A stretch of 64,000 nt of DNA, taken from the NCBI RefSeq assembly GCF_000723405.1, contig NZ_CCAE010000008.1, positions 1-64,000 of the forward strand, given 5' to 3'. This stretch comes from Hydrogenophaga intermedia. Its GTDB lineage: Bacteria; Pseudomonadota; Gammaproteobacteria; Burkholderiales; Burkholderiaceae_C. Below are positions 47,277 through 64,000 of this stretch, piece by piece (positions within the stretch are counted from its first letter, which is position 1; each line of letters opens with the position of its first letter). The notes under the pieces are model-generated. The model saw nothing but the letters and a program-made list of their open reading frames with translations. It was not told where the DNA came from and searched no databases. Position numbers and translations under genes: made by a program.

Positions 47277-48193
47277 GACGACCTCGTCAGCGAATCGAAC
47301 CAGGTGGTTGCGTCGTCGAGCTGGCTATAGCTCAGGTCGAAGGCCTCGCAGCCGTCGACGAGGTCGGCCAGGCACTCGAAGCCGCGCGGGCCATGCACAT
47401 GGTGGTTGAAGCTGTTGGAGGCCAGCTCCACCAGCGTCTGCGGCTTCGGGCGTGGCACAGCGCGCAAGGCCGCGCCTCTCTCGAAACGCGGAAAGACGAT
47501 CCAGCGTGGCGTGGCCGGCAGCGCCGCCTGGCGCAGGCTGGACTCGTTCACCCGCAGGTGCGCCACCATGCCCTTTAGTGTGTCGTGGGCCACGGGGCCG
47601 AACACCGCGTCCGGCAGGCGCTGGCGCATCAGCGCGATCGACTCGTTCTTGAGGCTGACGGGCCGCGGAGAGGCGCTCAGTTGCCCGCTCGCCGGGTCGA
47701 TCAGCGCGAGCTCGTCCGACATCAGGCGCCAGCCCTGCTGCATGAGCCAGGCGCACAGCGTGCTCTTGCCCGAGCCCGGCGGTGCGGGCAAGAGTACGGC
47801 ACGGCCGTCACGCTCCAGCACGGCCGCGTGCAGCGTGAGCCAGTGGTGGCAATGGCTGGTGACGCACCAGTTCAGGCCCCACTCGAAGAAGGCGAAGGCC
47901 TCGCCACGCGCCAGCGGCGTGAACGGTCGCTGGCCATCGACGTCGAGCTCGCAGCGCAGGCCCGTCCAGCCCAGGCGCGGCAGGATGCTCAGGTGGAAAT
48001 CGCAGAACACCTCGTCATCGCCAAAGTGCTCATGCAGCGCGTACATCCGCTCGATGCCTTCGCGCACCACGGGAATGGGGCTGCGCACGCGCACGGTGAA
48101 GGGCGGCACCGACAGGGCCAGGCCGTCGCTGTTGAGCCGGGCAGACAACTCGGCAGGAGAAAGATCGGCGATGCGCCCGCGAAGCGCGCTCAC
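47273..48193 (-). CDS. HPr-kinase-related protein (HprK-rel-A type)
   Basis: A 306-residue P-loop kinase related to the C-terminal domain of HPr kinase/phosphorylase: strand-loop HHWLTLHAAVLERDGRAVLL, Walker A PAPPGSGKSTLCAWLMQQG (residues about 137-155), then GWRLMSDELALID, which corresponds to the acidic metal-binding strand. The N-terminal 110 residues are a separate domain. Related kinases phosphorylate a serine of lasso peptides. GTG 48193 was chosen because it overlaps the PqqD-like stop as GTGA, like the other junctions of this operon; the longer frame is a shadow. Confidence 0.85.
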   Translation of the reverse strand: MSALRGRIADLSPAELSARLNSDGLALSVPPFTVRVRSPIPVVREGIERMYALHEHFGDDEVFCDFHLSILPRLGWTGLRCELDVDGQRPFTPLARGEAFAFFEWGLNWCVTSHCHHWLTLHAAVLERDGRAVLLPAPPGSGKSTLCAWLMQQGWRLMSDELALIDPASGQLSASPRPVSLKNESIALMRQRLPDAVFGPVAHDTLKGMVAHLRVNESSLRQAALPATPRWIVFPRFERGAALRAVPRPKPQTLVELASNSFNHHVHGPRGFECLADLVDGCEAFDLSYSQLDDATTWFDSLTRSS

Positions 48194-48486
48194 GAAGGTA
48201 TCCGTTCGATGAAGCCCATGTGCTCGAACTGCGCGAGGTGCTGATTCACGCCGTCGATGTCCTCGGGTTCTGGAGCGGCCTGAAGCAGATGCTGCGCGAG
48301 CGCCTCGGCGTCGGCGGGTTGCCCGTCCAGCAAACGTTCGATGAGTTCCGCCGCTACCGGGGACACAGCGCTGAGGCTGCCGTCTGCGGCGTCGTAAACA
48401 ACGCCCCCCTCGGGCCATCGCCGCAAAAGCAGCGCCTGTGCGCGCCGACAGACCCAGGCGAGCCGGCCGCCTGGCTCCAAGGTCAC
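48190..48486 (-). CDS. PqqD-like peptide-recognition protein (HPr-rel-A system)
   Basis: A 98-residue PqqD-fold protein: LLRRWPEGGVVYDAADGSLS, AVSPVAAELIERLLDG and IDGVNQHLAQFEHMGFIERI. PqqD proteins present precursor peptides to modifying enzymes (RiPP recognition elements). GTG 48486 overlaps the upstream stop as GTGA, and the next gene is coupled the same way. It matches, from memory, the family described as the PqqD-like partner of HprK-rel-A. The large upstream extension of the frame is antisense to nothing and lies within the secreted-protein gene, so it was discarded. Confidence 0.8.
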   Translation of the reverse strand: MTLEPGGRLAWVCRRAQALLLRRWPEGGVVYDAADGSLSAVSPVAAELIERLLDGQPADAEALAQHLLQAAPEPEDIDGVNQHLAQFEHMGFIERIPS

Positions 48487-49094
48487 AGAAACGCGGGACC
48501 GTAGACCATGTCGAAGTAGGCCATGGTCTGGCTCAGCGTCCAGGTGGTGCCCGCGAAGGGCTGCCAGACACCCTGGCCGTTCCAGATGGCGCGGCACTGC
48601 GACTGCGTGAGCATCACGCGCGACGGATCGTTCTGATAGGCCTTGGCCGTGAGAAACGCGGCAACGACGTGGCGGGCCAGCGCGGCATTGCCCTGGTTGC
48701 CACCGTTCTCGAGCACCTGCTGCAGGGTCTTGTTGGTGTAAACACCGCCCGGATTCTGGGTGAAGCCCGTTTCCGTCGACAGGAACTTGGTGGTGGTTTT
48801 GTACTTGTTCGGCAAGCCGCCGTCGCGGTTCTTCCAGTAACCGTGCGACTGGCACTCGTAGTCGGTCTTGAGTTCGCGACGCGCGCTCACCTTCATCTGC
48901 GCGGCGCGCAGCGACGAGAAGGTGGAGGGTTTGATGCAGGTGTGGTCGCCGGCGAGCACGGTGTTGCTCTTGAGCGCGGCCAACACGGGCGCGGCGCTCA
49001 GGCCCGCGCGAACCAGGTGCCGGCGCGAGAGACCGGACGCCGGCGCCTCGGCTTCCTGCACGACGACATCTTCAGAATGGTTCATATCGGACAT
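48483..49094 (-). CDS. exported protein with twin-arginine-like leader and SHGYWKN motif
   Basis: The 203-residue protein has an acidic N-terminal extension (HSEDVVVQEAEAPASG), then SRRHLVRAGLSAAPVLAAL, a twin-arginine-like export signal. The mature part has three cysteines and ECQSHGYWKNRDGG, a motif seen in secreted surface proteins, then ETGFTQNPGGVYTNKTLQQV and SQCRAIWNGQGVWQPFAG. The function is unknown. AAGGAGG stands 8 nt before ATG 49094, a strong ribosome site. It is the first gene of the PqqD/HprK/nucleotidyltransferase operon, making it the most obvious candidate substrate. Confidence 0.7.
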   Translation of the reverse strand: MSDMNHSEDVVVQEAEAPASGLSRRHLVRAGLSAAPVLAALKSNTVLAGDHTCIKPSTFSSLRAAQMKVSARRELKTDYECQSHGYWKNRDGGLPNKYKTTTKFLSTETGFTQNPGGVYTNKTLQQVLENGGNQGNAALARHVVAAFLTAKAYQNDPSRVMLTQSQCRAIWNGQGVWQPFAGTTWTLSQTMAYFDMVYGPAFL

Positions 49095-49217
49095 GGGAAC
49101 AACCTCCTTCGGCCTGACTGCCAACCCCGCGAGCTTGGCCGCACACATACGGGGTATTGTAGATCGGTCTGTAGCAAAAAGTAATCGTCTGGACGGCCGG
49201 CGGGCAGGTTTTCGGGC

Positions 49218-50612
49218 TCACTGCGCGCCCTTGCCGGTCAGCACCACTCCGACCGTCTCGAACAGGACCACCAGGTCCAGGAACAGGGAGTGGTTTTTCA
49301 CGTAGTACAGGTCGTACTGCAGCTTCTCGGCGGTGTCTTCCACCGTGGAGCCGTACTGGTACCGCACCTGAGCCCAACCCGTCACGCCCGGCTTGACGCT
49401 GTGGCGCACAGCGTAGAACTGGATTTGCTGGGTCAGTTGGTCGACGAAGAAGCCGCGTTCGGGGCGCGGGCCAACGAGGCTCATGTCGCCCTTGAGCACC
49501 GAGAACAACTGCGGCAACTCGTCCACCCGCAGCTTGCGAATGACTTTGCCCACGCGTGTCACGCGGCTGTCGCCGGCGGTGGCCCAGCGGGGTACGCCGT
49601 CCTTTTCGGCGTCGGTCCGCATGCTGCGGAACTTGACCACGTGGAATGGCCGGTTGCCCAGGCCGATGCGTTCCTGCCGGTACAGCATCGGGCCGGCGCT
49701 CTCGAGCTTGATGGCCAGGGCGGCCACCGCCATGATGGGCAGCGAGATGAGGATCAGCACCGAGGCGCCGAGGATGTCGAACACCCGCTTGATGGTGGTG
49801 CGCACGATGCCCTGGTTGAAGCCGTCGCCGAAGATCAGCCAGCCCGCCGACACGGCGTCCAGGCGGATCTGGCCGAGGTTCTGTTCGTAGAAGGTGGCGA
49901 TGTCGGTGACGCGCACGCCGCCCAGCTTGCAATCGAGCAGCGCGCGCATGGGCATGCTGCCGCCGCGGCGCTCGGTGATGGCCACCACGATTTCATCGAT
50001 GCGCTTGTTCTGCACCAGGTCGGTCAAGGCCAGGTCGGTGGTCACCACCTTGCCCGCCGGCACCTGCTGTTCCTGCTCGTTGGGGCCGGCCAGGTAACCG
50101 CAGAGCTCGGCGTTGGCGCCCGGCATCTCCAGGGCGCGCCCCACGGCCAGCGCGCGCGCGCCCGTGCCGAACACCAGCACCCGGCGCTTGGGAATGGCCT
50201 TGGGCAGGTACTCGCCCACCAGCACCTGGTAGAGCAGCAGCACGGCCGTGACCATCATGATCAGCACCACCGACCAGGTGCGGCCGTAGAACGCTTCCAG
50301 CGGCATCAGCAGCAGCACGGCAACAACGAGCGCCGTGGTCATGCTGAACGACACCAGCGAGCGCGCCAACGCCTGCCGGGTCGACAGGATGGTGCGGCGG
50401 TCGTAGAAGCCGAGGGCGGCGTTGATGGCCAGGAAGCCGAATCCCATCAACAGGCCGCGGGTCGCGCCGCGCGCGATCTGCGCCGAGGTAAGGTCTTCGG
50501 GCTTGGACAACGCGATCAGCGCGCCCACGAACACGCCGGCCACCAGCGTCACGTCGAGCAGGAGCTGTATGAGTGTGTGTCGGTCGAAGTAGTGGTTGAA
50601 GAGTCTGATCAC
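49218..50612 (-). CDS. polyprenyl-phosphate sugar phosphotransferase (EpsB_2/WcaJ-like)
   Basis: The 464-residue enzyme starts exopolysaccharide repeat units by loading a sugar-phosphate onto undecaprenyl phosphate. Four N-terminal membrane helices (LLLDVTLVAGVFVGALIAL and following) and a CoA-binding-like Rossmann domain (RVLVFGTGARALAVGRALEM) precede the C-terminal catalytic domain. The latter is marked by IKRVFDILGASVLILISLP, GPMLYRQERIGLGNRPF, KFRSMRTDAE, RKLRVDELPQLFSVLKGDMS and LVGPRPERGFF. It most resembles the PEP-CTERM-associated EpsB branch, though no exosortase is visible here. Confidence 0.9.
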   Translation of the reverse strand: MIRLFNHYFDRHTLIQLLLDVTLVAGVFVGALIALSKPEDLTSAQIARGATRGLLMGFGFLAINAALGFYDRRTILSTRQALARSLVSFSMTTALVVAVLLLMPLEAFYGRTWSVVLIMMVTAVLLLYQVLVGEYLPKAIPKRRVLVFGTGARALAVGRALEMPGANAELCGYLAGPNEQEQQVPAGKVVTTDLALTDLVQNKRIDEIVVAITERRGGSMPMRALLDCKLGGVRVTDIATFYEQNLGQIRLDAVSAGWLIFGDGFNQGIVRTTIKRVFDILGASVLILISLPIMAVAALAIKLESAGPMLYRQERIGLGNRPFHVVKFRSMRTDAEKDGVPRWATAGDSRVTRVGKVIRKLRVDELPQLFSVLKGDMSLVGPRPERGFFVDQLTQQIQFYAVRHSVKPGVTGWAQVRYQYGSTVEDTAEKLQYDLYYVKNHSLFLDLVVLFETVGVVLTGKGAQ

Positions 50613-50716
50613 GCGAGGTTCTCCGGACGCGGCCAGGTCGGTGTCCTACGGGTACCCCCTAGTGCATCCTGCCCATTCATCCGAGGATAGTGGGCTGGCC
50701 ATGTCAACACAATCGC

Positions 50717-52660
50717 TTACATCCTGCTTTTGTGTGAAGTATTTCGCTCGAACGCCAGACCAAGGCCCAGCGTGATCCACCAGCACCAGGCCACGCGGGG
50801 CACTTCGGTCACGCTGATGAGCATGCCCAGGGCCGCGATGGCGACCACGGCGCACAGCCAGGCGCCCGCCAAAGGCTCTCGGGCCAGCAGGCCCCGCCAG
50901 ACCGAGTGCGTTGTCCAGGCGAGCCAACCCAGCAAGGCCGCCAGTGCGAAGGCGCCGCGCTCGACCAGCACTTCAAGGTAGAGGTTGTCCGCATGCCAGG
51001 GCTCGAAATGGCCCTGCGCGGCGGGCAGCCAGTGGGCCGGCCCCTGCCGGAAATCGGGGTTGAGCAAGCGCTGCCGGCCATGCGGGTCGAGGAGTTCCAG
51101 GCGCTCGATCTCGACCACCGCGCCCGGCGTCAGCACGGACACGGAAAAGAAGCCTTCGCGCCAGCGGGCCAGCGCCGCATCGGGCGCGAGCGAGTCGCCG
51201 AAGAGATCGATCTCGCGCACGACGGGCCCGCGCGCGGTGTCCGTGGCGTGGCGGATGAAGCGCCACTGGCAGCGGCGGTCGTAAAGGAGGTGGCGCTCGC
51301 AAACGCTGACCAACAGCCGCAAACCGGGCTGCGCTTCGTAGGACAGGCGCACGCGCCAGGTGCCGGCTTCGAAGTCGGACAAGCGCTGCACCGCGCCGAA
51401 ACGCAGGCCGTCCAGGCCGGCGTGGCTGGGGCCGTGCAGCCGCATGCGGGGGCCGCCTTCCCCGTCGGCCCATGTCAAACGACCCGGGGTTCCCGAGTCC
51501 GGCCGTTCGCCCATGCGCGCGGGCAGCCGGCCAGCGCCGATGCCCAGCATCAGGTCCGCCCCACCGCCGAGCGTCGAGGCCACCGAGCGCCAGTGGTCGA
51601 AGCGGTGCGTGAAGTCCTGGCCTGAGCGCGCCAGCCGGTTCGCGATGGCCGTGGCACCCAGCACCACCCAGGCCAGTTGAGCCAGCACCACCAGCACCAC
51701 CAACGCGTTGCCCAGGCGCGGCGCGCCCGCGCTTTCGCCGGTCGCCGCGAGCGGCGAGCGGCGGTGCAGGACGTACGCCAGCACCGAACCGATCAACACC
51801 GCGCCATACAGCCCACGCGACTGGGTCGTCAGCACCACGTGGCAGGCCAGCACGAACAGCGCCGCCGCGGCCCACCATGCCCGCGCGGTGCGCGCGCGCA
51901 GCCACCACCAGGCAGCCAAGGGCACGGTCAGACTCAGGTAGGCGTCGATCGCGCCGCCTCCCACATGCATTTCCCAGAACCAGGCCGTGGTGCGATAGCC
52001 CGACCACACGTCCAGCAGGCCCGCGTACAGCAGCCGCTCGGCCACCACCAGCGTACAGACCGTGGCCAGCCCCGCCAGGCTGCCGCGCCACCAGGCGACC
52101 ACCCAGCGCCGCCGGGACGCCGCACCGGCGCCACTTGACCACAGCGGCAGCAGCAGCGCCGCCCAGATCAGCGCTTTACTCGATCGCCAGGTGTTCGCAG
52201 GCGACTGGTAGTCAGCGAAGGGGAACGCGGCCCAGGACGGCCAGGCGCCGCCATCGACCCAGGCCCTGGCACCGCCCACAGCGGCCACCCCCAACAGCGC
52301 GGCCGACAGGGCCAGCACACGGCGGTCGAGCACCCGATCGGCTGCGTCCCGATCGCCTTCTCGCAGGGCGCCAGCGACCCACACACCCCAACTGCCGGCG
52401 GCCACCGCCAGCACCAGAAGGTCGAACTCGTCGAGCATCAGCCAACCCGTGTGCACGGCCTGGCTGGCCCAGGGCAGCACAGCCGGCAGCACATACGCGC
52501 CCCAGAGCGGCCGCCAGGCCGTGAGGGCGATGAGCGCCAGCACCGCCGCGCCCAGCCCCAGGGGCAGGATCGGGTGCGCCCAGGCACCGGCCAGGGCCGC
52601 GACGGCAGCGCTCAGGGCAAGGGCAGCAGCGGCCGGCGTCTTCAAGGCTCTAACGGTCAT
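50717..52660 (-). CDS. O-antigen ligase/polymerase-like membrane protein with extracytoplasmic insert
   Basis: The 647-residue protein has about ten hydrophobic segments in the N-terminal 340 residues, including the Wzy/WaaL-like region LTTQSRGLYGAVLIGSVLAY. A soluble insert of about 230 residues (residues about 350-570, e.g. LSDFEAGTWRVRLSYEAQPG) of beta-sandwich, carbohydrate-binding appearance follows. The end returns to HADNLYLEVLVERGAFALAA, the conserved H..N.YLE..VE.G motif of O-antigen ligases, and two helices. It probably polymerises or transfers the polysaccharide. Start ATG 52660 (MTVRALKTP) or 52669. Confidence 0.78.
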   Translation of the reverse strand: MTVRALKTPAAAALALSAAVAALAGAWAHPILPLGLGAAVLALIALTAWRPLWGAYVLPAVLPWASQAVHTGWLMLDEFDLLVLAVAAGSWGVWVAGALREGDRDAADRVLDRRVLALSAALLGVAAVGGARAWVDGGAWPSWAAFPFADYQSPANTWRSSKALIWAALLLPLWSSGAGAASRRRWVVAWWRGSLAGLATVCTLVVAERLLYAGLLDVWSGYRTTAWFWEMHVGGGAIDAYLSLTVPLAAWWWLRARTARAWWAAAALFVLACHVVLTTQSRGLYGAVLIGSVLAYVLHRRSPLAATGESAGAPRLGNALVVLVVLAQLAWVVLGATAIANRLARSGQDFTHRFDHWRSVASTLGGGADLMLGIGAGRLPARMGERPDSGTPGRLTWADGEGGPRMRLHGPSHAGLDGLRFGAVQRLSDFEAGTWRVRLSYEAQPGLRLLVSVCERHLLYDRRCQWRFIRHATDTARGPVVREIDLFGDSLAPDAALARWREGFFSVSVLTPGAVVEIERLELLDPHGRQRLLNPDFRQGPAHWLPAAQGHFEPWHADNLYLEVLVERGAFALAALLGWLAWTTHSVWRGLLAREPLAGAWLCAVVAIAALGMLISVTEVPRVAWCWWITLGLGLAFERNTSHKSRM

Positions 52661-52951
52661 GAAGACCAAAATGTATCAATTTGAAACAACCGTTTTTCTC
52701 AAGCCGAGGGCTGGCCGTCCCACGGTCTGTCGAGGAGAAACCCGGGCGTTTTCACACGGTTTCGATTTCGCTGGAACTCACATTCTGAATCGATGGCGTC
52801 ATCAATTCGTGAAATGATTCACGCGCCGCCAAAATACCCTACTCGGTGTTCAACGGCGGAACCGCCCTCCCCGTCCCGCTTTTTCCAGAACCTCAGTGGC
52901 CTTCTGTCGGTGTCGTGTGGCCCGACGCAGAGATTGTTTGACCCGTCATCC

Positions 52952-55051
52952 ATGAACACCTACTTTCTCGAGGTTCAGCAGCGCAGGACCATGCTCACGA
53001 CACTTCTCGCCGCCACCTGCCTTGTGGCCGCTTGTGGCGGTGGTGGGGGCGGCGGTGGACTGGTGAGCGACACGCCATCCCAGGTGTCGAGCGACTCGGC
53101 GCCGACGCCGCTGCCCGCGGCCCCCGTTGGTCCCGGCGGCCTGGCTTGCGCCTCGGGGGCCATTACCTGCGTGGAGGTGACATCCGGCAGTGCCCAGAGC
53201 AACGTGCCCATCACCTTCGGCCAACCGTTTCGTGTCGGTGACCTCTCCACCAGCCAGGGCCTGCGCGCGCAGGACAGCGCCGGCAACACCGTACCGTTGC
53301 AGATGGACGAGGTGTCCACCCAACCCAACGGCTCGGTGCGCTTTGCCGTGCTCAGTGCCTCCGTGCCCAGCCTGCCGGCCAACAGCGCACGCATCATCAA
53401 CATCTACCCCGCCGCCAAGACCACGCCCAACGTGTCGCTGCCCGCCGCGCCCGCGTGGAACCTGCAGATCACGGCCCGCCTGTCCGACGGCACCACCCTG
53501 ACGGCCAATCCGCAGGCGCAGTTGCAGCAGCAGATCGCCAATGGCAGTGGCCGCCGCCTGCACGGCCCCGTCGCCAGTGAATTCAACGTGGTGTCGCCGC
53601 TGAACGACCGCCTCACGGCCCGGCTGCACGTTCGCCTCTACAAAACCGGCCAGATCCGCACCGACGTGGTGATGGAGAACAACTGGGCCCTCAAGTCCAG
53701 CCCCGCCAACGTCACCTACTCGCTCACCGTCACCGCCAACGGCCAGACCCTGCTGTCGCAGCCGTCCTTCACTCATTCGAGCAAGGCGCGCTGGCACCGC
53801 GTGGTGTGGAGCGGCGGCAACCCGAACGTGCGTGTGCGCCACCACATGCCCTACTTCCTGGCCAGCCGCGCCACCTGGAACTACAACCTGGGCCTAAGCA
53901 TTCCCGACAGCGTGCTGTCCGAAGAGGCCCGTTCGCTGGCGAACTCCAACACCAATCCCATGGGCACGGCCAAGCTGACGACCGACATGCCCGGCACCGG
54001 CGGACGCGACGAGATCGCCCCGCTGCCGCGCTGGACCGCCCTGTACCTCATCACCCAGGACGACCGCGCCCGCGCCTCCATGCTGGCCAATGCCGACGCC
54101 GCCGCCAGCGCCCCCGTGCACTACCGCGACGAGGCCACGGACCAGCCGATCAGTGTCGTCCGCCACCCCGGCATCGCCTTGCGCTACGGCAACTCCAGCC
54201 CCGCCGTCCCCAACGGAGGCTCCAGCAACTGGACGCCCGACATCGCCCACCAGGGCTCCTACGCCTACATCCCGTACCTGGTCACCGGCGACGCCTTCTA
54301 CCTCGACGAGATGATGTTCTGGGCTGCCTGGAACATCGCCGCCAACGACCCCATCTACCGCGAACGCGACAAGGGCCTTCTCATGCCCGAGCAGGTGCGT
54401 GGCCAGGCGTGGGGGCTTCGCTCCATCGCTGAAGCCGCCTTCGCGGCGCCGGACTCGCACGCCATGAACAGCTACTTCGACACCATGCTGTCGAACAACA
54501 TGGCCTGGTTCCTCAATACCTACGGCCCCGGCCGCTCGGGCAGCCTGTTCTCGCCCATGGGCGCGCTGATCTCGCAATACAACAACAACCAGACGCCCTC
54601 GTACGAATCGGACTTCTTCGCCACGGTGATGGCCTGGCTGGCCGAGAACAACGTGACCAACGCCGCCACCGTGCTCAACAGCGTGGGCCGCATGCAGATC
54701 GACCGCTTCCTGGCCAGCACGCAATCGGCCGGTTTCTGCACCAGCCACGCCGCGGGCTACTGGCTGCAGACCATGAGCGGCGGCAGTTACGTGAACAGCT
54801 GGAGCGAGTTCTTCCGCCTCAACTACGGCTCGGCCAGCTGCGGCAGCACGGCCCTCGCGGGCGACCCGGCCTACCCCGACTGGGCCGGTGGCTACGCGGC
54901 CGTCGCACGCGGCATGCTGGCCGCGGCCAGCAACGCCAACGCCAACAACGCCGCCAGCGCCTACGCGCGCTGGAAGGGCTTCACGCCGCTGCTGGACTCC
55001 GGCGCTCGCGGTTTCTCCAGCGACCCGTCCTACGCGATCGTGCCGCGCTGA
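52952..55051 (+). CDS. lipoprotein with YetA/PcRGLX-like fold, possible polysaccharide lyase or hydrolase
   Basis: A lipoprotein signal (MLTTLLAATCLVAAC, lipobox LVAAC) is followed by a Gly8 run and a Ser/Pro linker. The N-terminal beta domain (NVPITFGQPFRVGDLSTSQG, NTVPLQMDEVSTQPNGSVRF) resembles the N-terminal RIFT barrel of YetA/exo-rhamnogalacturonan lyase proteins. The C-terminal 400 residues look like an alpha/alpha toroid (GSYAYIPYLVTGDAFYLDEM, RGQAWGLRSIAEAAFAA). It may trim the exopolysaccharide. Start ATG 52952 (MNTYFLEVQQRRTML), with 52991 as alternative. Its 3' end overlaps the convergent deacetylase gene by 22 bp. Confidence 0.65.
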   Translation: MNTYFLEVQQRRTMLTTLLAATCLVAACGGGGGGGGLVSDTPSQVSSDSAPTPLPAAPVGPGGLACASGAITCVEVTSGSAQSNVPITFGQPFRVGDLSTSQGLRAQDSAGNTVPLQMDEVSTQPNGSVRFAVLSASVPSLPANSARIINIYPAAKTTPNVSLPAAPAWNLQITARLSDGTTLTANPQAQLQQQIANGSGRRLHGPVASEFNVVSPLNDRLTARLHVRLYKTGQIRTDVVMENNWALKSSPANVTYSLTVTANGQTLLSQPSFTHSSKARWHRVVWSGGNPNVRVRHHMPYFLASRATWNYNLGLSIPDSVLSEEARSLANSNTNPMGTAKLTTDMPGTGGRDEIAPLPRWTALYLITQDDRARASMLANADAAASAPVHYRDEATDQPISVVRHPGIALRYGNSSPAVPNGGSSNWTPDIAHQGSYAYIPYLVTGDAFYLDEMMFWAAWNIAANDPIYRERDKGLLMPEQVRGQAWGLRSIAEAAFAAPDSHAMNSYFDTMLSNNMAWFLNTYGPGRSGSLFSPMGALISQYNNNQTPSYESDFFATVMAWLAENNVTNAATVLNSVGRMQIDRFLASTQSAGFCTSHAAGYWLQTMSGGSYVNSWSEFFRLNYGSASCGSTALAGDPAYPDWAGGYAAVARGMLAAASNANANNAASAYARWKGFTPLLDSGARGFSSDPSYAIVPR

Positions 55052-56118
55052 GGCGAGAGGGCTTCAGGCTGGAGCGGCGCGGCCGGGCTCACCGGCGTGG
55101 CGGCGAGCGCATCGCGCCACAGATCCGTCAGGGTCGAGAACTCGCCGCCCAGCCGATCGCGAAAGTGCGCGCAGACCCGATCAATGCGACGCAGGAACTC
55201 CTGAAGGTCCTGGTCGTTGCGCACGTAGGGCGTGTGTCCCGGAGCCAACGAAGGCGAGTGATAGGTCAGGCTGAAGACCCGCACCCCCTGCGCGTACAAC
55301 GCCTCCATCAGACGGATCTGCGTGTCCGCATCGAAGCCTTCAGGACTCAGGCGCGCACGCCACAGCACGCCCAGCCGGCTCAGCACCGACTGCACGCGAA
55401 CGCGCTGCAGCAGCGGGTTGTCCCACAGCCCCGCGAAGCGCTGCCCGGCCCACCAGGCACGTCCGCCGTAACCCACCGTCAGCGGTACCTCCAGCAGCTC
55501 GCGCGACTCGTTCATGAAGAACGGGTGCATGGACGTACCGAGGAAGTTGGGGCCGTGCACGCGCTCGAAACTGGTGGCGGGCACGAAGCTGCAGTCGATG
55601 CGGTAGCCCAGGCGCTGGATCACGCCCAGCGTGCCGGCCCCGACGCCATAGCGCCCGGCCTTGAAGATGAGGGGCCGCTGCCCGAAGGCCTGAGCCACGG
55701 CGTCCGTGCTCGCCTCCAGCTTCGCGGCCTCCAGTTCTGGCCGCAGGTTGCCGTGGAATGAGTTGTAGTCGTTGACCTCGTCCTCGAACGGTGGCGTCAC
55801 CCAGGGGTGGCAGTGCGTACCGAAGTGCGCTCGGCCCGCATCGACCAGGCGGCGCAGGTAGGCCGCCGCTGGCGCCGAACGCGCCACGGCGTGATCGAGC
55901 ACGTAGGTCGGCACGATGCCGTACTTGTCGAACACCGCGTGCGCGTGGTCCTGCGCCGGAATCGACGCCGTGCCCACTGCGTCGCGGTCGAAGGGTCTGG
56001 ACCAATCGAACTCCTCCTCGGTGTCCACCACCACGAGCAGGATGGGCCGCCCAGACGAGCGTTGTGCAGGCACCGGGCGCCAGTCCGGGTGCGTGATCGG
56101 GCGGTAGCCGGCGACCAT
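55030..56118 (-). CDS. polysaccharide deacetylase family protein
   Basis: A 362-residue NodB-fold protein of the WalW/COG0726 type. The first motif is ILLVVVDTEEEFDWSRPF with the metal-binding Asp, and the H-x3-H motif appears as HFGTHCHPWVTPPF. Further conserved parts are RPLIFKAGRYGVGAGTL and VFSLTYHSPSLAPGHTPY. It probably deacetylates a polysaccharide in the cell envelope, although no signal peptide is evident. The start is ATG 56118. It follows the methyltransferase by 26 bp on the same strand. Confidence 0.85.
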   Translation of the reverse strand: MVAGYRPITHPDWRPVPAQRSSGRPILLVVVDTEEEFDWSRPFDRDAVGTASIPAQDHAHAVFDKYGIVPTYVLDHAVARSAPAAAYLRRLVDAGRAHFGTHCHPWVTPPFEDEVNDYNSFHGNLRPELEAAKLEASTDAVAQAFGQRPLIFKAGRYGVGAGTLGVIQRLGYRIDCSFVPATSFERVHGPNFLGTSMHPFFMNESRELLEVPLTVGYGGRAWWAGQRFAGLWDNPLLQRVRVQSVLSRLGVLWRARLSPEGFDADTQIRLMEALYAQGVRVFSLTYHSPSLAPGHTPYVRNDQDLQEFLRRIDRVCAHFRDRLGGEFSTLTDLWRDALAATPVSPAAPLQPEALSPQRGTIA

Positions 56119-56144
56119 CGTGAGGGCGGCTGGGCGCGGTGGTA

Positions 56145-56924
56145 TCAGACCCGGCGCGTGCCGTGCACGGTGACCGTGCGGTAGTAGGCGCCGAGCGAGG
56201 GCATGGACGAGGCGATCGCCGCATCGAAGCGATCCGCCGCGTTCACCATCCAGTTGCTGGGCCGCGCGCGCACGGCCTTGGACACCACCGCTGCCGGGAA
56301 GGCGAAGAGGTCGGTGTACAGGTGCTTGGGCGCGAAGTAGCGGTCCAGGATGTCAAGCTCCTCGCGCGCCAGTGGCTTCTCGTCGGGCGTGCGCGCTTTC
56401 GGCGTGAGCGCGCGCACCAGGCGCGCCACCGGGTTGAGCAGCAGCGGTTCGACGAACAGGATCTCGCCGCCGGGCTTGGTCACGCGCGCGATTTCCTTCA
56501 CCGCGCGCTCGAACTCCAGGTGGTGCAGGATGGCCGTGCCGAACACCAGGTCAAAGGTGGCGTCGGGGAACTGCAACTCGTGCGCATCCATCAGCTTGAA
56601 CTCCACCGGCAGGCCCTTGGCCTCGGCCACCTGACGCCCTTTGTCGAGCTCACGGTCGGAGATGTTGATGCAGGTGAGCTGGGTGGGCTTGAGGTTCCAC
56701 TTGAGGTAGTGGGCCTCCCAGGCCTGGCTGCCCACCTCGAGCACGCGGGTGTTGGTGTGGCGCGTGTGCACGGCGCGGATCAGCTCGTCGCGGCGGCGCC
56801 GCGCGGGCCCCATCTGCGTGTACGCCATGACCGCTTCCAGGCGGTCCCGCTCCAGCTCGTCGTTGTCGTATATCTCGGCCTCGCGGCTGACGCGCTGGGC
56901 GTCGTGTGAAGTCGGGCTCGTCAT
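56145..56924 (-). CDS. class I SAM-dependent methyltransferase
   Basis: A Methyltransf_11-like protein of 259 residues: motif I is degenerate (RVLEVGSQAWEAHYLKW instead of GxGxG), followed by LTCINISDRELDKGRQV, FKLMDAHELQFPDATFDLVF, TAILHHLEFERAVKEIARV and TKPGGEILFVEPL. The hydrophobic C-terminus suggests a membrane-associated substrate. Its place in the polysaccharide operon suggests methylation of a sugar or lipid carrier. It is divergent from the NRPS-PKS gene, so a role in that pathway cannot be excluded. Confidence 0.8.
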   Translation of the reverse strand: MTSPTSHDAQRVSREAEIYDNDELERDRLEAVMAYTQMGPARRRRDELIRAVHTRHTNTRVLEVGSQAWEAHYLKWNLKPTQLTCINISDRELDKGRQVAEAKGLPVEFKLMDAHELQFPDATFDLVFGTAILHHLEFERAVKEIARVTKPGGEILFVEPLLLNPVARLVRALTPKARTPDEKPLAREELDILDRYFAPKHLYTDLFAFPAAVVSKAVRARPSNWMVNAADRFDAAIASSMPSLGAYYRTVTVHGTRRV

Positions 56925-57290
56925 GCGGACGCCTCCAATTGAATTGCGCAGGGGCCGGCGTTCATTGGCCAGCGTAACCCGGTGAAACTAGCACAGCGTT
57001 TGACATTTGCGTACCTTCGATGCACACCAAAACGTGCAATATCTCCACGAAATGGCGATGCATCAGATGTCAATCATCAACACAATTGCCTTACCGGTAC
57101 TCGCATCCAGCCGCCAACGGGGCGCTACGAACCGCTTGGCGCCTGACACCCCATACCGCCACCGGTACCGTCAAAAAGTTCACAACCGAGCGGCAACGGG
57201 AATTGGCTGGCGGGAACGCCGTGGTTACAGTCGGTTTCGACTGGCGTTATTTTGTATTAGATTCACCGGCTCTGGTTCTACGAGGTGAGG
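56925..57290. other. regulatory region between the methyltransferase and the NRPS-PKS gene
   Basis: This 366-bp stretch has no convincing gene and is less GC-rich than its surroundings. Visible elements are a TTGACA at about 57000-57005 without a good -10, two ACCGGTAC sites (around 57094 and 57159), and an AT-rich GTTATTTTGTATTAGATTC near 57246-57264 that could supply a -10 (TATTAG) about 30 bp before the start. A ribosome site GAGGTGAGG directly precedes ATG 57291. Confidence 0.45.
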
Positions 57291-60200
57291 ATGGACACGA
57301 AAGCTCGAACGGAACCATCGGCACGGCGCGTGTCCCGTTTGGGTGATTGGCTCGTCCTTGCGGCGCAGGCCTGGCCCGAGCGGCCCGCCCTGGAAACCGC
57401 CGACGGTCAGACCCTGACGTACCGCGAACTGCTCGCGCGCGTCGAGGACGGCGCGCGCCGCTGGAGCGGCGCGGGCGTGCGCCGTGGCGAGCGCATCGCC
57501 ATCGCCGCCACGCGCTCGCCCGATTCCATCGTCCACATCCTCACCGCCGCCCACCTGGACGTGGGCTACGTGCCACTGGACCTGGCCTACCCCGCCGAGC
57601 GCCTGGTCGCCATGTTGGAGGACGCCCGCCCGCGCGCCGTGGTGGGCGAAGACCAGGCCCTGGCCCAACTGAGCGAGAGCGTGGGTGAACTGCCCACGCT
57701 CGAGCACCCTGCCCCCGCCACGACGGACCTGCACGCGGCCGAGCCCGACCTGGCCTACGTGCTCTTCACCTCCGGCTCCACCGGCCGCCCCAAGGGCGTG
57801 GCCATGGGCGAGCGCCCGCTGCGCCACCTGATCGACTGGCACGTCGCGCACGCACGCCTGGGCCAGGCCGCGCGCACCCTGCAGTTCGCGCCGCTGTCTT
57901 TCGACGTGCACTTCCAGGAGATCTTCTCCACCGTGGCCACCGGCGGCACGCTGGTGTTGGTGCCAGACATCCAGCGCCGCGACCCAGGCCTGCTGCACCG
58001 CGCGCTGATCGAGCGGCGCATCGAGCGCATCTTCGTGCCCTACGTGGCGCTTCAAATGATCGCCGACGCCTCGCGCGACGAGGCCCCGCCCCACCTGCGC
58101 GAGGTGGTCAGCGCCGGTGAGCAGTTGCAGGTGAGCCCCGCCATCCGCTCCATGTTCCTGCGGCTGCCCGGCGCCGAGTTGCACAACCACTATGGCCCCA
58201 CCGAAAGCCACGTCGTCACCGCGCACGACCTCACGGGCGACCCGGCGCAGTGGCCCGAGATCCCGCCCATCGGCAAGGCCCTGCCCCATGTGCAGGTGAT
58301 GCTGCGCGAGGCGCACGACGATGGCGAAGGCTTCACCGTGGGCGAGCTGCTGCTGGGTGGCGAGACATTGGCCAACGGCTACCTGGGCCGCGCCGACCTG
58401 AGCGCCGAGCGCTTCCGCACCGACGTCGCTCCCGGCCAGACCTGGTACGTCACCGGCGACCTGGTGCGCCGCGACGAGCACGGCGCGCTCACCTACCTGG
58501 GCCGCGCCGACCAGCAGGTCAAGGTCGATGGCTTTCGCATCGAGCCCGGTGAGATCGAACTCGCACTGATGGCGCACGAGAGCGTGAAGGAAGCCGTGGT
58601 GACCGCGCCCGAACTGCCCGGCGCGGGCCGCCAGCTCGTGGCGCACGTGGTGCTCAACCCCGGTGTGGCCGGCGATGCGGCCAGCCTGGCGCCCCAGTGG
58701 CGCCAGTACCTGCGCGCGCGCATGCCCGAGTACATGGTGCCGGTGCGCTACGTGGTGCTCGATCGCCTGCCCGTCACGCCCAGCGGCAAGATCGACCGGC
58801 GCAACCTGCCGCTGCCCGCGGTGGACGCGAGTCCGCTGGACACTGGCAACCCGCTCGAACTCGCGCGTCGCCTGTGGTGCGAACTGCTGGGCGTCGAGCG
58901 CATCGCCGACGACCAGAACCTCTTCGACCTGGGCGCCAAGTCGCTGCTCGTGATGCGCTTCGTGGCCCGCGTGCGCGAGGCCGGCGTGCACACCCTCGGT
59001 GTGGCCGACGTGTACGACCGCCCCACCCTGGCCGGCATTGCGCAGGCCATGGCCGGCACGGACAACGCGCCGCGCCGCCAGCGTCGCGCGGCACCTGCCA
59101 ACGCCACCGGCGGCATCGCCATCGTGGGCATGGCCGTGCGCGTGCCGGGCTCGCCCGACCTCGAATCCTTCTGGCAGAACCTGCTCGACGGCCGCGAGGG
59201 CATACGCCACTTCCGCCCCGACGAACTCGACCCCTCGTTGCCCGATGAGCTGCGCGCGCGCCCGAACTTCGTGGCCGCGCACGGCGCGCTCGACGACGTC
59301 GAGCGCTTCGACGCCGCGCACTTCGGCGTCTCCGCGCGCGAGGCCGTGATGCTCGACCCGCAGCAGCGCCTGATGCTGGAGCTCAGCATCACCGCGCTGG
59401 AGCACGCGGGCATCGATCACACGCGCACCCACGACCGCGTGGGGGTGTACGCGGGAACCGGCAACAACGCCTACGCGCTCGCGCTGCGCCAGGAGAACCC
59501 CGAACTCATCCGCCAGGTAGGCGAGTTCGCCACCATGCTGGCGAGCGAGAAGGACTACGTCGCCACGCGCATCGCCAACCGCCTCAACCTCAAGGGCCCC
59601 GCGCTCAGCATCCACACCGCCTGCTCCACCAGCCTGGTGGCCGTGGCGCAGGCCTGGCACGCGCTGGCCAGCGGGCAATGCGACATCGCGCTGGCCGGTG
59701 GCGCCAACGTGCACGCGCCGCAGGCCACGGGCTACCTGCACGTGGAAGGCGGCATGGAATCGGCCGATGGCCACTGCCGTCCCTTCGACGCGCAAGCCAG
59801 CGGCACCGTGTTCGCCAGTGGCGGGGGCATGGTGGTGCTCAAGCGGCTGGACGACGCCATCGCTGCCGGCGACACCATCTACGCGGTGGTGCGCGGCGTG
59901 GGCATCAACAACGACGGCGGCGACAAGGCCAGCTTCACCGCGCCCAGTGTCACGGGGCAGCTCGAGGCCATCCGCATGGCGCTGGAGCACGCCGACATCG
60001 ATCCGCGCAGCATCGGCTACGTCGAGGCGCACGGCACCGCCACCGCGCTCGGCGACCCGATCGAGATCAGCGCGCTCAGCAAGGCCTGGGCCGAGGACAC
60101 GGCTGACACGCAGTTCTGCGCCATCGGCTCGGTCAAGAGCAACATCGGCCACCTGGCCGCCGGCGCCGGCGTGGTGGGCCTGGCCAAGGCCGCACTCGCA

Positions 60201-63200
60201 CTGCAGCGTGGTGTCATCCCGGCCACGCTGCACTACACGCAGCCCAACCCGCAGATTCACTTCGAGCGCACGCCCTTCCAGGTGGTGGCGCGCAATACGC
60301 CCTGGACCGAAGGCCATGGCGAGGCGCCGCGCCGCGCGGCCGTCAGTTCTTTCGGCGTGGGCGGCACCAACGCGCACGTGGTGATCGAAGCCGCCCCTGC
60401 CTCTGCTCCCGCCTCGACGGAAAGCGCCAGCGGCGGTCAGCGCTGGGTGCTGCCGCTCTCCGCCCGCACCGCCGACGAGGCCCTGGCCCGCGCCCGCGCT
60501 CTGGCCGAGCACCTGCAGGCCCACCCCGAACTGCCGCTGCCCACCGTGGCCGCCACGCTCATGCGCGGGCGCCGCGCGATGGCGCATCGCCTGAGCGTGG
60601 TCGCCACCTCCACCGCGCAGGCCATCGAGGCGCTGCGCGCGGCGAAGTCCCCCACGGCCGCGCTCGCCGCGCCGCGTCTGGTCTTCCTGTTCCCCGGCCA
60701 GGGCTCGCAGCACCCCGGCATGGCGCGCCAGTTGTTCGACGAGGTCCCCGCCTTCGCCGAGGCCCTGCAGCGCTGCACCGAGGCGCTCAAGCCCCTGCTC
60801 GGCGGCACCGACCTGCTGCCCTGGCTCGTGCAAGCCGACCCGGCCGACGAAGCCATCGCGCGCCAACTCGCCGACACGCGCCACGCGCAGCCCGCGCTGT
60901 TCGCCATGTCTTATGCGCTGGCGAGCTGGCTCGACAGCCTGGGCGTGAAGCCCGCCGCCCTCATCGGCCACAGCATCGGCGAATACGCCGCCGCCTGCCA
61001 CGCCGGCGTGCTCTCGCTCGACGACGCGCTGGCCGCCGTGGTCGCGCGCGGCCAGGCCATGGCCGACCAGCCGCCCGGCGCCATGCTCGCCGTGCGCCTG
61101 GGCGCCGACGAACTGCGCGCGCGCCTGCCCGCCACCATCGACATTGCCGGCATCAACGCGCCCACGCTCACCGTGGTCGCCGGCCCCTTCGACGCCGTCG
61201 AATCGCTCGCGAAAACCCTCGAAGCGGCCGACGTGCACTGCACGCGCCTGCGCGTCTCGCACGCCTTCCACAGCGCCAGCATGGACGGCGCGCTGCCGCG
61301 CGTGCAGGCCGCGCTCTCCAAGGCCCGCCTCAGCGCGCCGCGCCTGCCCGTCTACTCCTGCGTCAGCGGCGCACCGCTCACCGCGGCCGAAGCCACCGAC
61401 CCCGCCTACTGGGCGCGCCAGGTGCGGGCGCCGGTGCGCTTCAGCCAGGCGGTGAACGCCGAACTCGCACAGGGCGATTGCGTATTCCTCGAAGTCGGCC
61501 CCGGCCAGGCCTTGTCGGCCCTGGTGCGCCAGCACCGCGGCGCGCAGAACGCCGCGCCACGCAACCTGGCCCTGCTCGGCCCCGCCAACCAGCCTGGCGA
61601 GCCGGCCGCGCACGCGCTCGCCGCCATCGGCGCGCTGTGGAGCGCGGGCGTGGACATTTCCTGGCCCGTGGCCGCCAGCGCCCCGCGCGCGGCCCTGCCC
61701 ACCTACCCCTTCGGCGGCGAGCGCCACTGGTTCACACGCCGCGCCCCCGCCACACCCCTTTCACCGACCGGTGCTTCCGCACCTCAGCAGGCCCCCATCG
61801 CCATGAGCCGTCTACCCGCCGTCGAAGCCGAACTGCAACGCATCCTCAGCGATGTCTCCGGCATCCCCGCCGACGAGATCACCCCCGAGGCCACCTTCGT
61901 GGACCAGGGGCTGGACTCGCTCTCGCTGACGCAGGCCACGCTGGAGATCGAGCGCGTGTTCGGCGTCAAGCTGCGCTTTCGCCGCCTGCTGGAAGACCTG
62001 GACAACACGCGCAAGCTGGCGACGCTGCTCGACGCCGAGATGCCGCCCGAGCGCTTCGCGCCACCCGCGCCTGTCGCGGTGGCCGCCGCACCAGTCGCAG
62101 CCGAGGCCACCGCCCAGCCGCTGACCATGGTCGCGCCGCAAGCCATGGCCCTGCCCGCCTTCAACGCCGCCCCGTTGGCCGCCGGCCAGGGCGGCGCGCT
62201 GCACACACTCATCCAGCAACAGATGCAGCTCATGGCGCAGCAGCTCGCGCTGCTCGCGGGCACTCCGGTGGCCGCAGCGCCCGCCACCACCGCGCCGGTC
62301 GTGGCCTCCGCCGCTGCGGCCAGCGTGGCCGCCCCCGTGGCCCGCGCCAACGCCCCTGCCCCGGCCCCCGCGCCCGCTGCCAGCGCCGACACCAGCGAAC
62401 AGCCCTCCATCAAGTCCCTGGTCGAGAAGCCCTTCGGCGCCTCGCCCCGTCTCACGCTGCAAGCCGGCCAGGACTTCACGCCCGCGCAACACCGCTGGAT
62501 CGACGACTTCATCGCGAAGTACAACGCGCGCACCGCGAAGTCCAAGTCCTTCAGCCAGGACAACCGCAAGGTCATGGCCGACCCGCGCGTGGTCACCGGC
62601 TTCAACCCGATGTGGAAGGACCTGGTCTACCCCATCGTCGTGGACCGCTCCAAGGGCGCCAGCCTCTGGGACCTGGACGGCAACGAGTACATCGACCTGC
62701 TCTCCTGCTTCGGCGCCAACATGCTCGGCTACCAGCCCGATTACCTGTTGCAGGCCATGCACGAGCAGCTCGACCGCGGCCTGGAGGTCGGCCCGCAGCA
62801 CCCGCTGTCGGCCGACGTGGCGCACCTGATTTCCAAGTTCACCGGCATGGAACGCGTGGGCTTTTGCAACACCGGCTCCGAGGCCGTGATGGGTGCCATG
62901 CGCATCGCGCGCACCGTCACCGGCCGAAAGAAGATCGCGATCTTCAGCAACTCGTACCACGGCATCTTCGACGAGGTCATCGTGCGCGGCACCAAGCAGC
63001 TGCGCTCGCTGTCAGCCGCGCCGGGCATCCTGGCCAACGCGGTCGAGAACATCCTGGTGCTGGACTGGAACAGCGAAGAATCGCTGAAGGTGCTGCGCGA
63101 GCAGGGGCCGCAGCTCGCGGCCATCATGACCGAGCCGATCCAGAACAAGTACCCCAACATCCGCCCGCGCGAGTTCGTGCGCTCGCTGCGCGAAATCGCC

Positions 63201-64000
63201 GACGCCAGCGGCTGCGCGCTGATCTTCGACGAGGTCGTCACCGGTTTTCGCGTGGCACGCGGCGGCGCGCAAGAGTTCTACGGCGTGCGCGCCGACATCT
63301 CCACCTTCGGCAAGGTCATCGGCGGTGGCCTGCCCTTCGCGGCCATCGCCGGCAACGCCAACTGGCTGGACGCGCTGGACGGCGGCCACTGGCAGTACGG
63401 CGACAACTCCTACCCCGAAGCCGGCGTCACCTACTTCGCCGGCACCTTCGTGCGCCACCCGCTGGCCCTGGCCGCGGCCAAGGCCTCGCTCGAGCACATC
63501 GACCGCGCGGGCCCGGCCTTCTACAGCGAGATCAACAGCCGCACCCAGCGCATGATCGACCGCCTCAATGCCGGCTTCGCCCAACGCGGCGCACCCTGCA
63601 ACGCGGTCAACTGCGCCTCCATCTGGCGCCTGCACTGGGACGACGGACAGAAGAACGTCAGCCTCTTCTACTACCTCATCCGCCACCTCGGCCTGCACGT
63701 CTACGAACAGTTCGGCCACTTCGTGACCGAGGCCATGACGGAGGAGATCACCACCCGCATCGCCGACACCATCCTCAAGGCGCTTGACGAGCTGATGGCC
63801 CTGGGCTTCATCACCCGCCGCGACGGCGGCTCGCCCGGCGGCGGCCTGCCCCTGGACGCCGCGTCGAACACCCCGGCCACGTCCGCCCCCACCGAGGCCG
63901 CTCTCGCCCCCGGCCAGACCGAGCGCTGGCTGGTCGGCGCCTTCGACGACAACGCGCGCCGCGCGCTCAACGAATCCTTCTGCGTGAGCCTGCAGGGCAC
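57291..64000 (+). CDS. hybrid NRPS-PKS megasynthase (A-PCP-KS-AT-ACP-AMT-C...), 5' part
   Basis: One uninterrupted frame of 2236 codons is open at the window edge. The domains in order are as follows. Adenylation (about 20-500): FTSGSTGRPKG, NHYGPTESH, YVTGDLVRR, VKVDGFRIEPGE, PSGKIDRRN. PCP: LGAKSLL, Ser about 551. Ketosynthase (about 607-1030): Cys about 778 in HTACSTSL, His in EAHGTATALGDP and KSNIGHLAAGAG. Acyltransferase: FPGQGSQHPGM, Ser about 1228 in GHSIGEYAAA, and HAFHSASMD, a malonyl-type motif. ACP: GLDSLSL, Ser about 1543. An Ala/Pro linker of about 120 residues. PLP aminotransferase (about 1720-2160): Lys about 2008 in TFGKVIGGGLPFA. The start of a condensation domain: TERWLVGAFDDNARRALNES. 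No ketoreductase is present, so the beta-keto group should become a beta-amine before condensation. GAGG lies 5 nt before the ATG. Confidence 0.95.
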   Translation, partial: MDTKARTEPSARRVSRLGDWLVLAAQAWPERPALETADGQTLTYRELLARVEDGARRWSGAGVRRGERIAIAATRSPDSIVHILTAAHLDVGYVPLDLAYPAERLVAMLEDARPRAVVGEDQALAQLSESVGELPTLEHPAPATTDLHAAEPDLAYVLFTSGSTGRPKGVAMGERPLRHLIDWHVAHARLGQAARTLQFAPLSFDVHFQEIFSTVATGGTLVLVPDIQRRDPGLLHRALIERRIERIFVPYVALQMIADASRDEAPPHLREVVSAGEQLQVSPAIRSMFLRLPGAELHNHYGPTESHVVTAHDLTGDPAQWPEIPPIGKALPHVQVMLREAHDDGEGFTVGELLLGGETLANGYLGRADLSAERFRTDVAPGQTWYVTGDLVRRDEHGALTYLGRADQQVKVDGFRIEPGEIELALMAHESVKEAVVTAPELPGAGRQLVAHVVLNPGVAGDAASLAPQWRQYLRARMPEYMVPVRYVVLDRLPVTPSGKIDRRNLPLPAVDASPLDTGNPLELARRLWCELLGVERIADDQNLFDLGAKSLLVMRFVARVREAGVHTLGVADVYDRPTLAGIAQAMAGTDNAPRRQRRAAPANATGGIAIVGMAVRVPGSPDLESFWQNLLDGREGIRHFRPDELDPSLPDELRARPNFVAAHGALDDVERFDAAHFGVSAREAVMLDPQQRLMLELSITALEHAGIDHTRTHDRVGVYAGTGNNAYALALRQENPELIRQVGEFATMLASEKDYVATRIANRLNLKGPALSIHTACSTSLVAVAQAWHALASGQCDIALAGGANVHAPQATGYLHVEGGMESADGHCRPFDAQASGTVFASGGGMVVLKRLDDAIAAGDTIYAVVRGVGINNDGGDKASFTAPSVTGQLEAIRMALEHADIDPRSIGYVEAHGTATALGDPIEISALSKAWAEDTADTQFCAIGSVKSNIGHLAAGAGVVGLAKAALALQRGVIPATLHYTQPNPQIHFERTPFQVVARNTPWTEGHGEAPRRAAVSSFGVGGTNAHVVIEAAPASAPASTESASGGQRWVLPLSARTADEALARARALAEHLQAHPELPLPTVAATLMRGRRAMAHRLSVVATSTAQAIEALRAAKSPTAALAAPRLVFLFPGQGSQHPGMARQLFDEVPAFAEALQRCTEALKPLLGGTDLLPWLVQADPADEAIARQLADTRHAQPALFAMSYALASWLDSLGVKPAALIGHSIGEYAAACHAGVLSLDDALAAVVARGQAMADQPPGAMLAVRLGADELRARLPATIDIAGINAPTLTVVAGPFDAVESLAKTLEAADVHCTRLRVSHAFHSASMDGALPRVQAALSKARLSAPRLPVYSCVSGAPLTAAEATDPAYWARQVRAPVRFSQAVNAELAQGDCVFLEVGPGQALSALVRQHRGAQNAAPRNLALLGPANQPGEPAAHALAAIGALWSAGVDISWPVAASAPRAALPTYPFGGERHWFTRRAPATPLSPTGASAPQQAPIAMSRLPAVEAELQRILSDVSGIPADEITPEATFVDQGLDSLSLTQATLEIERVFGVKLRFRRLLEDLDNTRKLATLLDAEMPPERFAPPAPVAVAAAPVAAEATAQPLTMVAPQAMALPAFNAAPLAAGQGGALHTLIQQQMQLMAQQLALLAGTPVAAAPATTAPVVASAAAASVAAPVARANAPAPAPAPAASADTSEQPSIKSLVEKPFGASPRLTLQAGQDFTPAQHRWIDDFIAKYNARTAKSKSFSQDNRKVMADPRVVTGFNPMWKDLVYPIVVDRSKGASLWDLDGNEYIDLLSCFGANMLGYQPDYLLQAMHEQLDRGLEVGPQHPLSADVAHLISKFTGMERVGFCNTGSEAVMGAMRIARTVTGRKKIAIFSNSYHGIFDEVIVRGTKQLRSLSAAPGILANAVENILVLDWNSEESLKVLREQGPQLAAIMTEPIQNKYPNIRPREFVRSLREIADASGCALIFDEVVTGFRVARGGAQEFYGVRADISTFGKVIGGGLPFAAIAGNANWLDALDGGHWQYGDNSYPEAGVTYFAGTFVRHPLALAAAKASLEHIDRAGPAFYSEINSRTQRMIDRLNAGFAQRGAPCNAVNCASIWRLHWDDGQKNVSLFYYLIRHLGLHVYEQFGHFVTEAMTEEITTRIADTILKALDELMALGFITRRDGGSPGGGLPLDAASNTPATSAPTEAALAPGQTERWLVGAFDDNARRALNESFCVSLQG

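Follow-up and report, generated by a model that had tools for sequence, protein, structure and literature searches.

The DNA analysed here encodes an intact hybrid NRPS-PKS that is under selection, and in which a built-in beta-aminotransferase (AMT) follows an amino-acid starter module and a polyketide extension module. The synthase starts at the right-hand end of the window (i.e., the whole stretch of 64,000 nucleotides, positions 1-64000 of contig C8 in a draft genome of 5,288,135 bases and 124 contigs), and its predicted product unit is 3-amino-3-(pyrrolidin-2-yl)propanoyl-Gly, perhaps -Gly-Gly. Since the synthase lies among exopolysaccharide (EPS) genes in the genus, it may make a component of the cell surface and not a classic secreted antibiotic. 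Such a polysaccharide-related role is plausible though unproven, and the linkage is not seen in all carriers.

Domain architecture of the AMT synthase

The synthase ORF (plus strand) starts at 57285 with GTG, has an in-frame ATG at 57291, covers 57285..64000 of the window and, read past the window on contig C8, continues uninterrupted to a stop at 69938 (4217 aa). The initial annotation proposed the domain order A-PCP-KS-AT-ACP-AMT-C for a hybrid synthase extending beyond the window, and both the order and the continuation were borne out. A stop or frameshift just beyond 64000, which that annotation named as one of the findings that would speak against it, was looked for and is excluded by the 4217 open codons. 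Pfam matches, motif positions and domain comparison together give the complete order A-PCP-KS-AT-ACP-AMT-C-A-PCP-C-[dead A]-PCP, so that the modules to the right of 64000 read as A, PCP, C, a degenerate A and PCP.

Pfam matches two AMP-binding, two Condensation and four PP-binding stretches as well as a single KS, AT and class-III aminotransferase in the polypeptide, whereas neither a ketoreductase (KR) nor a thioesterase (TE) is matched anywhere in the 4217 residues at E values up to 0.001; the earlier statement that a KR is absent thus stands. The starter adenylation domain A1 is found at 57336..58814 (residues 18-510; domain comparison and pocket code) and, having been described as free-standing, proved to be fused within the synthase polypeptide. 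It is followed by PCP1 at 58830..59069 (motif GAKSLL, domain comparison), the KS at 59109..60404 (Pfam; motifs CSTSL, HGTATALGDP, and NIGHLAAGAG) and the AT at 60669..61574 (Pfam; motifs GHSIGEY and, read in the printed protein, HAFH, which we take to mark the malonyl type). The ACP at 61785..62009 (motif, domain comparison) precedes the AMT at 62397..63818 (residues 1705-2178), a MycA-like class-III PLP aminotransferase by Pfam, structure-database match and alignment, with its catalytic lysine within FGKVIGGG. The condensation domain C1 spans 63885..65234 (Pfam; motif SHLIFDG), its part in the window ending at 64000. Beyond the window, in contig C8 numbering and on the same plus strand, lie A2 (65277-66749), PCP2 (66780-67019), C2 (67050-68420), the dead A domain A* (68505-69584; profile comparison), and PCP3 (69600-69839), which is the last domain of the polypeptide. 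The C-domain motifs are HLIFDG and HHVVWDG, and a motif search found the carrier-protein serines present.

The synthase is no chance frame, because seven further genomes of the genus hold orthologues of its AMT within long ORFs (4227-4801 aa), at 99, 96, 92, 88, 81, 79, and 79% identity. The 88% orthologue belongs to Hydrogenophaga sp. L057 (by coordinates the same as G484 of the genus set, and also listed as G399), and relative to L057 the dN/dS ratio is 0.10-0.26 for A1, KS, AT, ACP, AMT, C1, A2, PCP2, C2, and the last PCP (0.17 for the latter). PCP1, with 0.65, is above the rest of the synthase.

Degeneration of the terminal adenylation domain

In the terminal A region (residues 3741-4100), Pfam finds no AMP-binding stretch and A3-A5 motifs are not recognisable; a profile made from four such dead regions aligns to A domains with a probability of 99.5 (E 2.2e-23). 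With a dN/dS of 0.41 relative to L057, A* also evolves faster than the other large domains. The synthase could on these grounds be read as a decaying pseudocluster, of which the dead third A marks a lost function. We consider this very improbable, as the frame is open over all 4217 codons, the other catalytic domains and the terminal PCP are under purifying selection, and the change recurs in the terminal A only. Moreover, the identical architecture including A* is kept in six annotated congeners (L057, G477, G463, G452, G476, and G499, the last with an extra N-terminal C), and a seventh, G501, has an AMT synthase frame of similar length. The extra condensation domain of the G499 synthase (3017972-3032347; L165-L166) is placed ahead of the starter A and may point to an acylated or otherwise extended start there.

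Among relatives, the terminal A is intact and Gly-like in all five cases in which its code was read (G033, G241, G368, G290, and G091), it is degenerate or eroding in the present genome, L057, L060, L061, and G005, and it is missing in some other relatives. An AMT tree of 57 rows was used, comprising the window's sequence, 39 of 80 relative loci and 17 of 23 other family carriers; terminal-A states were assigned by hand to 23 of these rows, 11 of which have a degenerate or absent terminal A, with at least eight state changes on the tree. From this we infer a repeated loss of a redundant glycine-loading domain, with A2 possibly serving both carriers.

Predicted chain assembly

The view that assembly starts from an amino acid is supported and can be refined by the predicted pocket codes, the first being Pro-like and the next Gly-like. 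The A1 pocket reads DVQFVAHVVK, and its core VQFVAHVV differs by one conservative change (I to V) from the consensus VQ(Y/F)IAHVV listed for modular L-Pro/methyl-Pro A domains in PMC3874040; PMC5730197 gives the identical modular Pro consensus. The starter code of the relative G290, VQFIAHVV, fits this published consensus exactly. The A1 code is thus predicted to fit the modular proline code. For A2, the pocket DILQ[L/C]GMVWK is ambiguous at position 299, which hinges on a one-residue gap, and is predicted to fit glycine; published glycine codes are DILQVGLIWK for DhbF1 (PMC4169593) and DILQLGMIWK (PMC12283262).

According to these codes, A1 would load L-proline (or methylproline) onto PCP1, and KS-AT-ACP would add one malonyl unit, leaving a beta-ketone because no KR is present. 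The AMT would then turn the beta-ketone into a beta-amine, giving 3-amino-3-(pyrrolidin-2-yl)propanoyl-ACP. C1 and A2 would couple this beta-amino acyl unit to glycine, and PCP3 would either receive a second glycine from A2 or stay empty. Finally, a cysteine hydrolase (HY1) with a nucleophile-less partner (HY2), both encoded next to the synthase, would release the chain or hand it to an acceptor. Taken as one claim, the chemistry up to the glycine adduct and the HY-dependent release is probably correct. The PLP lysine is retained in all 19 aligned AMTs, and the nearest solved relatives of the AMT are from mycosubtilin synthase (6kfu, E 2.8e-112; 6kfm, E 6.7e-112), followed by a stand-alone aminomutase (E 3.7e-55); the description of the enzyme as a hybrid NRPS-PKS with a built-in beta-aminotransferase is supported.

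Chain release and the second arm of the locus

Directly after the synthase, beyond the window on contig C8, are two alpha/beta hydrolase genes on the plus strand, HY2 (69976-70782) and HY1 (70788-71648). Their best matches are the exosortase-associated models hydr1_PEP and hydr2_PEP, all below the NCBIfam cut-offs (HY1 51.6 and its second copy HY1' 93.2 bits vs 168.45; HY2 75.4 bits vs 202.75). Among matches over 120 bits, which include duplicates of one genome (L062 = G241, L079 = G033), the elbow residue of HY1 is cysteine in 30/30 sequences, with a histidine also present in 30/30, and the nucleophile position of HY2 is arginine or glycine in 28/28. Release or transfer of the chain is here probably the work of an active cysteine enzyme together with a pseudo-enzyme. 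In the best 80 of 581 relatives, both kinds occur together at 21 loci (20 Proteobacteria and one Corallococcus); for 59, some of them on short contigs, the flanking sequence fetched did not show the two together, and no HY gene is called beside the G290 synthase. Release by HY is therefore not general to the family.

A second pair, HY1' (72273-73250) and HY2' (73172-73936), lies on the minus strand at the end of a second arm (73933-124792, minus strand, contig C8), which is convergent to the synthase. This arm is made up of a TE, six PKS modules, of which five carry reductive domains, EamA, C-A-PCP, KS-AT-KR-ACP and C-A-PCP, and a PPTase gene is located at 125113-125814 (plus strand). The genes of the arm recur in L057 at 32-75% identity and in the same order except for the EamA genes, accompanied by another pair of hydrolases and a PPTase. 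In both genomes, an HY pair of its own closes each arm. A PKS/NRPS second arm is also kept in G477 and G452 (a KS-AT-MT module in G477 was not called by the annotation script), and in G463, G499, and G476 it is replaced by an NRPS while the AMT synthase stays, which makes the AMT synthase the constant arm. The arm-2 NRPS of G499 starts with a fatty-acyl-AMP-ligase-like region that is below cut-off (408 vs 775 bits), and that of G463 with about 220 residues followed by an ordinary A domain. The PKS arm as an independent cluster was rejected, since it occurs with the synthase in L057/G484, G477, and G452, where its gene order differs in the EamA genes only, though an NRPS takes its place in G463, G499, and G476.

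Both arms might build one molecule, i.e., a constant diamino head that HY1/HY2 would link to a variable lipid-/polyketide-peptide tail. Arm 1 does not vary, and arm 2 is PKS/NRPS in G000, G484 (= L057), G477, and G452 and NRPS in G463, G499, and G476, an HY pair ends each arm in the present genome and L057, and the last intact A domain is predicted to be Gly-like in both arms. However, nothing indicates transfer between the arms, the synthase of G241, G368, and G033 has no second arm within the 60 kb fetched, and among 37 other genomes searched, a set that excludes G477 and G452, only G399 (= L057) holds a close relative of the PKS-arm TE (67%), followed by one at 42%. A joint product is rather unlikely.

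A YoeB/YefM-like toxin-antitoxin pair (71639-72141, minus strand) is located between the convergent arms and is also found in G477 (93-94%); none is called between the arms in L057 or G452. Just past the second-arm PPTase of L057, nucleotide-sugar dehydrogenase-like and cupin-like genes were recognised by eye (L143:2305-4521), and the cupin-like protein resembles a protein adjoining the G241 synthase.

Polysaccharide genes and the possible role of the product

Upstream of the synthase, positions 46170..56924 hold a block of genes that congeners retain next to the synthase or not far from it. It is read as EPS-related because of an EpsB_2-type polyprenyl glycosylphosphotransferase gene (49218..50612, minus strand; 501.2 bits vs a cut-off of 393.35), and further contains genes for an NTP_transf_5 protein, an HprK-related kinase A, a PcRGLX-like protein (plus strand) and a methyltransferase, as well as two minus-strand genes (50717 and 55030) without a family match. 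The NTP_transf_5 and HprK-related kinase A genes (46170-49148) adjoin one for a 221-aa protein with, by eye, a twin-arginine-like start, and have relatives near EpsB in the L057 contig and G463, as well as in the part of G477 that was fetched. The 752-aa PcRGLX-like protein (52793-55051) has a weak N-terminal match to that family and two relatives in G463, one by the synthase and one by EpsB.

In G477, the block occupies the same position as in the present genome. In G463 and G499, relatives of two block genes adjoin the synthase, followed by a gene that by eye resembles a sugar dehydrogenase; EpsB lies 32 kb and 11 kb upstream, respectively. On the other side, eight of eight tested genes exceed XrtA/PEP-CTERM cut-offs in G499, 18-29 kb past the last arm-2 gene, and in G463 the XrtA chain-length gene does so 24 kb beyond arm 2; EPS genes hence flank the locus on both sides in these two congeners. 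Over the genus (67 genomes for the AMT, 60 of these for EpsB), an XrtA/PEP-CTERM-type chain-length gene over cut-off is present in 21/67 genomes, i.e., in 8/8 synthase carriers and 13/59 non-carriers (hypergeometric 3.1e-5, kinship uncorrected), and EpsB of the present type in 16/60, including all six synthase carriers among these (1.6e-4, kinship uncorrected). The chain-length gene is on a contig other than that of the synthase in the present genome (C32), G477, G484, and G501.

The HY best matches and the XrtA-type genes of G499 give the locus a likeness to XrtA/PEP-CTERM EPS loci as modelled in NCBIfam, from which it differs in the HY scores (51-93 bits vs cut-offs of 168-203). An XrtA system at the locus itself was set aside, as neither an XrtA exosortase nor ligase_PEP_1 is over cut-off in the present genome, whose best exosortase match (C21) is below it. 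As a universal feature, the EPS linkage was rejected: many carriers have no marker nearby, and immediately upstream of the L057 synthase lie unrelated genes, with the EpsB block at a distance of about 31 kb.

The chance that the synthase makes an ordinary secreted secondary metabolite of lipopeptide- or alkaloid-like type, with the EPS genes as mere neighbours in a variable chromosomal region, is somewhat less than even. The second arm, with its PKS modules, its EamA and MFS transporter genes and its PPTase, resembles a classic metabolite cluster, and the presence of the synthase is patchy (8/67 congeners). The fetched flanks of 64 of the best 80 of 581 relative loci contain no EpsB-type gene, and 17 of 24 family carriers, a few of them on short contigs, have no Bac_transf gene at 16 kb or less from the AMT. 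In G129, G290, and L058 the synthase is near pyrD and an FAD oxidoreductase gene, and in L060 near the latter, possibly an insertion place.

The reading as a free metabolite is opposed by the frequency of polysaccharide genes at the loci, with kinship uncorrected in each of these counts. An EpsB-type gene is present in 16 of the best 80 of 581 relative loci and, among the 44 of these searched with PF02397, in 11 vs 0.59 expected, where the observed side was counted with our own EpsB profile made from such loci and the window's gene. A Bac_transf gene at 16 kb or less from the AMT, a distance chosen post hoc, is found in 7/24 family carriers vs 0.5 expected. EpsB and a sugar dehydrogenase adjoin the synthase in all five members of one Lysobacteraceae clade (L067, L068, L069, L071, and L080); of two other Lysobacteraceae, L131 has EpsB and L099 does not. 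The flanking on both sides in G463 and G499 and the 8/8 XrtA co-occurrence point in the same direction.

Given both the exchangeable arm and the polysaccharide genes in the region, we judge a product tied to the surface or to polysaccharide to be roughly as probable as a free metabolite. The more specific proposal is that of a widespread NRPS-PKS class devoted to the cell surface, in which a cationic beta,gamma-diamino acyl-glycine (here from proline) would be moved, where present by the cysteine hydrolase/pseudo-hydrolase pair, onto an exopolysaccharide or lipid-linked precursor, in this genus with an exchangeable second arm; this is tentative, and we regard it as doubtful in its full extent. 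Precedent for A-domain chemistry on surface polymers is provided by AlmE, which activates glycine to modify lipopolysaccharide (PMC11253843). Should the link to polysaccharide hold true, enzymes usually filed under antibiotics would make up a family of surface-polymer tailoring enzymes in several phyla. Even without it, the family predicts diamino acyl-glycines, a simple and unexplored product type, as well as an unusual pair of off-line release proteins, and its terminal A domains form a natural series of intact, dead, and lost states.

Occurrence and comparison with known systems

To our knowledge, no product is known for the family of beta-aminotransferase synthases with an amino-acid starter. 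The present synthase is of the iturin/mycosubtilin/microcystin kind in that a class-III PLP AMT with its catalytic lysine is fused right after KS-AT-ACP, with no KR before the AMT. In MycA (mycosubtilin, iturin family), which provides the closest solved AMT (6kfu and 6kfm), a class-III AMT likewise comes after a KS module, but the starter is a fatty acid taken up by an acyl ligase; unlike MycA, the present synthase starts with a Pro-type A-PCP and continues with Gly, without the acyl ligase-ACP starter of the iturin type. Iturin-type synthases release their chain by a cis TE domain, whereas the polypeptide described here ends in a PCP, with HY1/HY2 encoded next door. McyE (microcystin) carries its built-in AMT after KS-AT-ACP, has no amino-acid starter module, and belongs to another product class.

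The AMT query matches 24/399 family genomes (E up to 1e-60), and 8/67 genomes of the genus carry the synthase. From a scan of genome contigs, the best 80 of 581 relatives were kept, which include Burkholderiales, Lysobacteraceae, Rhodanobacteraceae, Bacteroidota, Myxococcota, and Planctomycetota. Among these 80, the AMT is called in 67 and the full A-PCP-KS-AT-ACP-AMT in one frame in 46; among the loci without a full one-frame call are some on short contigs and others with split genes or mis-called frames. The start architecture is not new, being this widespread and having been tabulated in 2013 (PMC3870968), where a table entry lists the A-CP-KS-AT-CP-PLP1 start, the same as that of the present synthase, for Pedobacter heparinus C6XWU5 and Thiorhodococcus drewsii G2E5C9, with glycine predicted for the Pedobacter cluster. 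The word "polysaccharide" has no occurrence in that survey, and its relevant passages do not treat the HY pair, the proline code or terminal A decay. Neither an assigned product for the family nor an NRPS in EPS/exosortase loci gave a match in open-licence PMC text.

Beside the AMT synthases of G129 and G290, a second NRPS is encoded (1533953-1542484 and 1410715-1419189, respectively), the A-like start of which, with HDYGLVS at A4, looks by eye like a fatty-acyl ligase.
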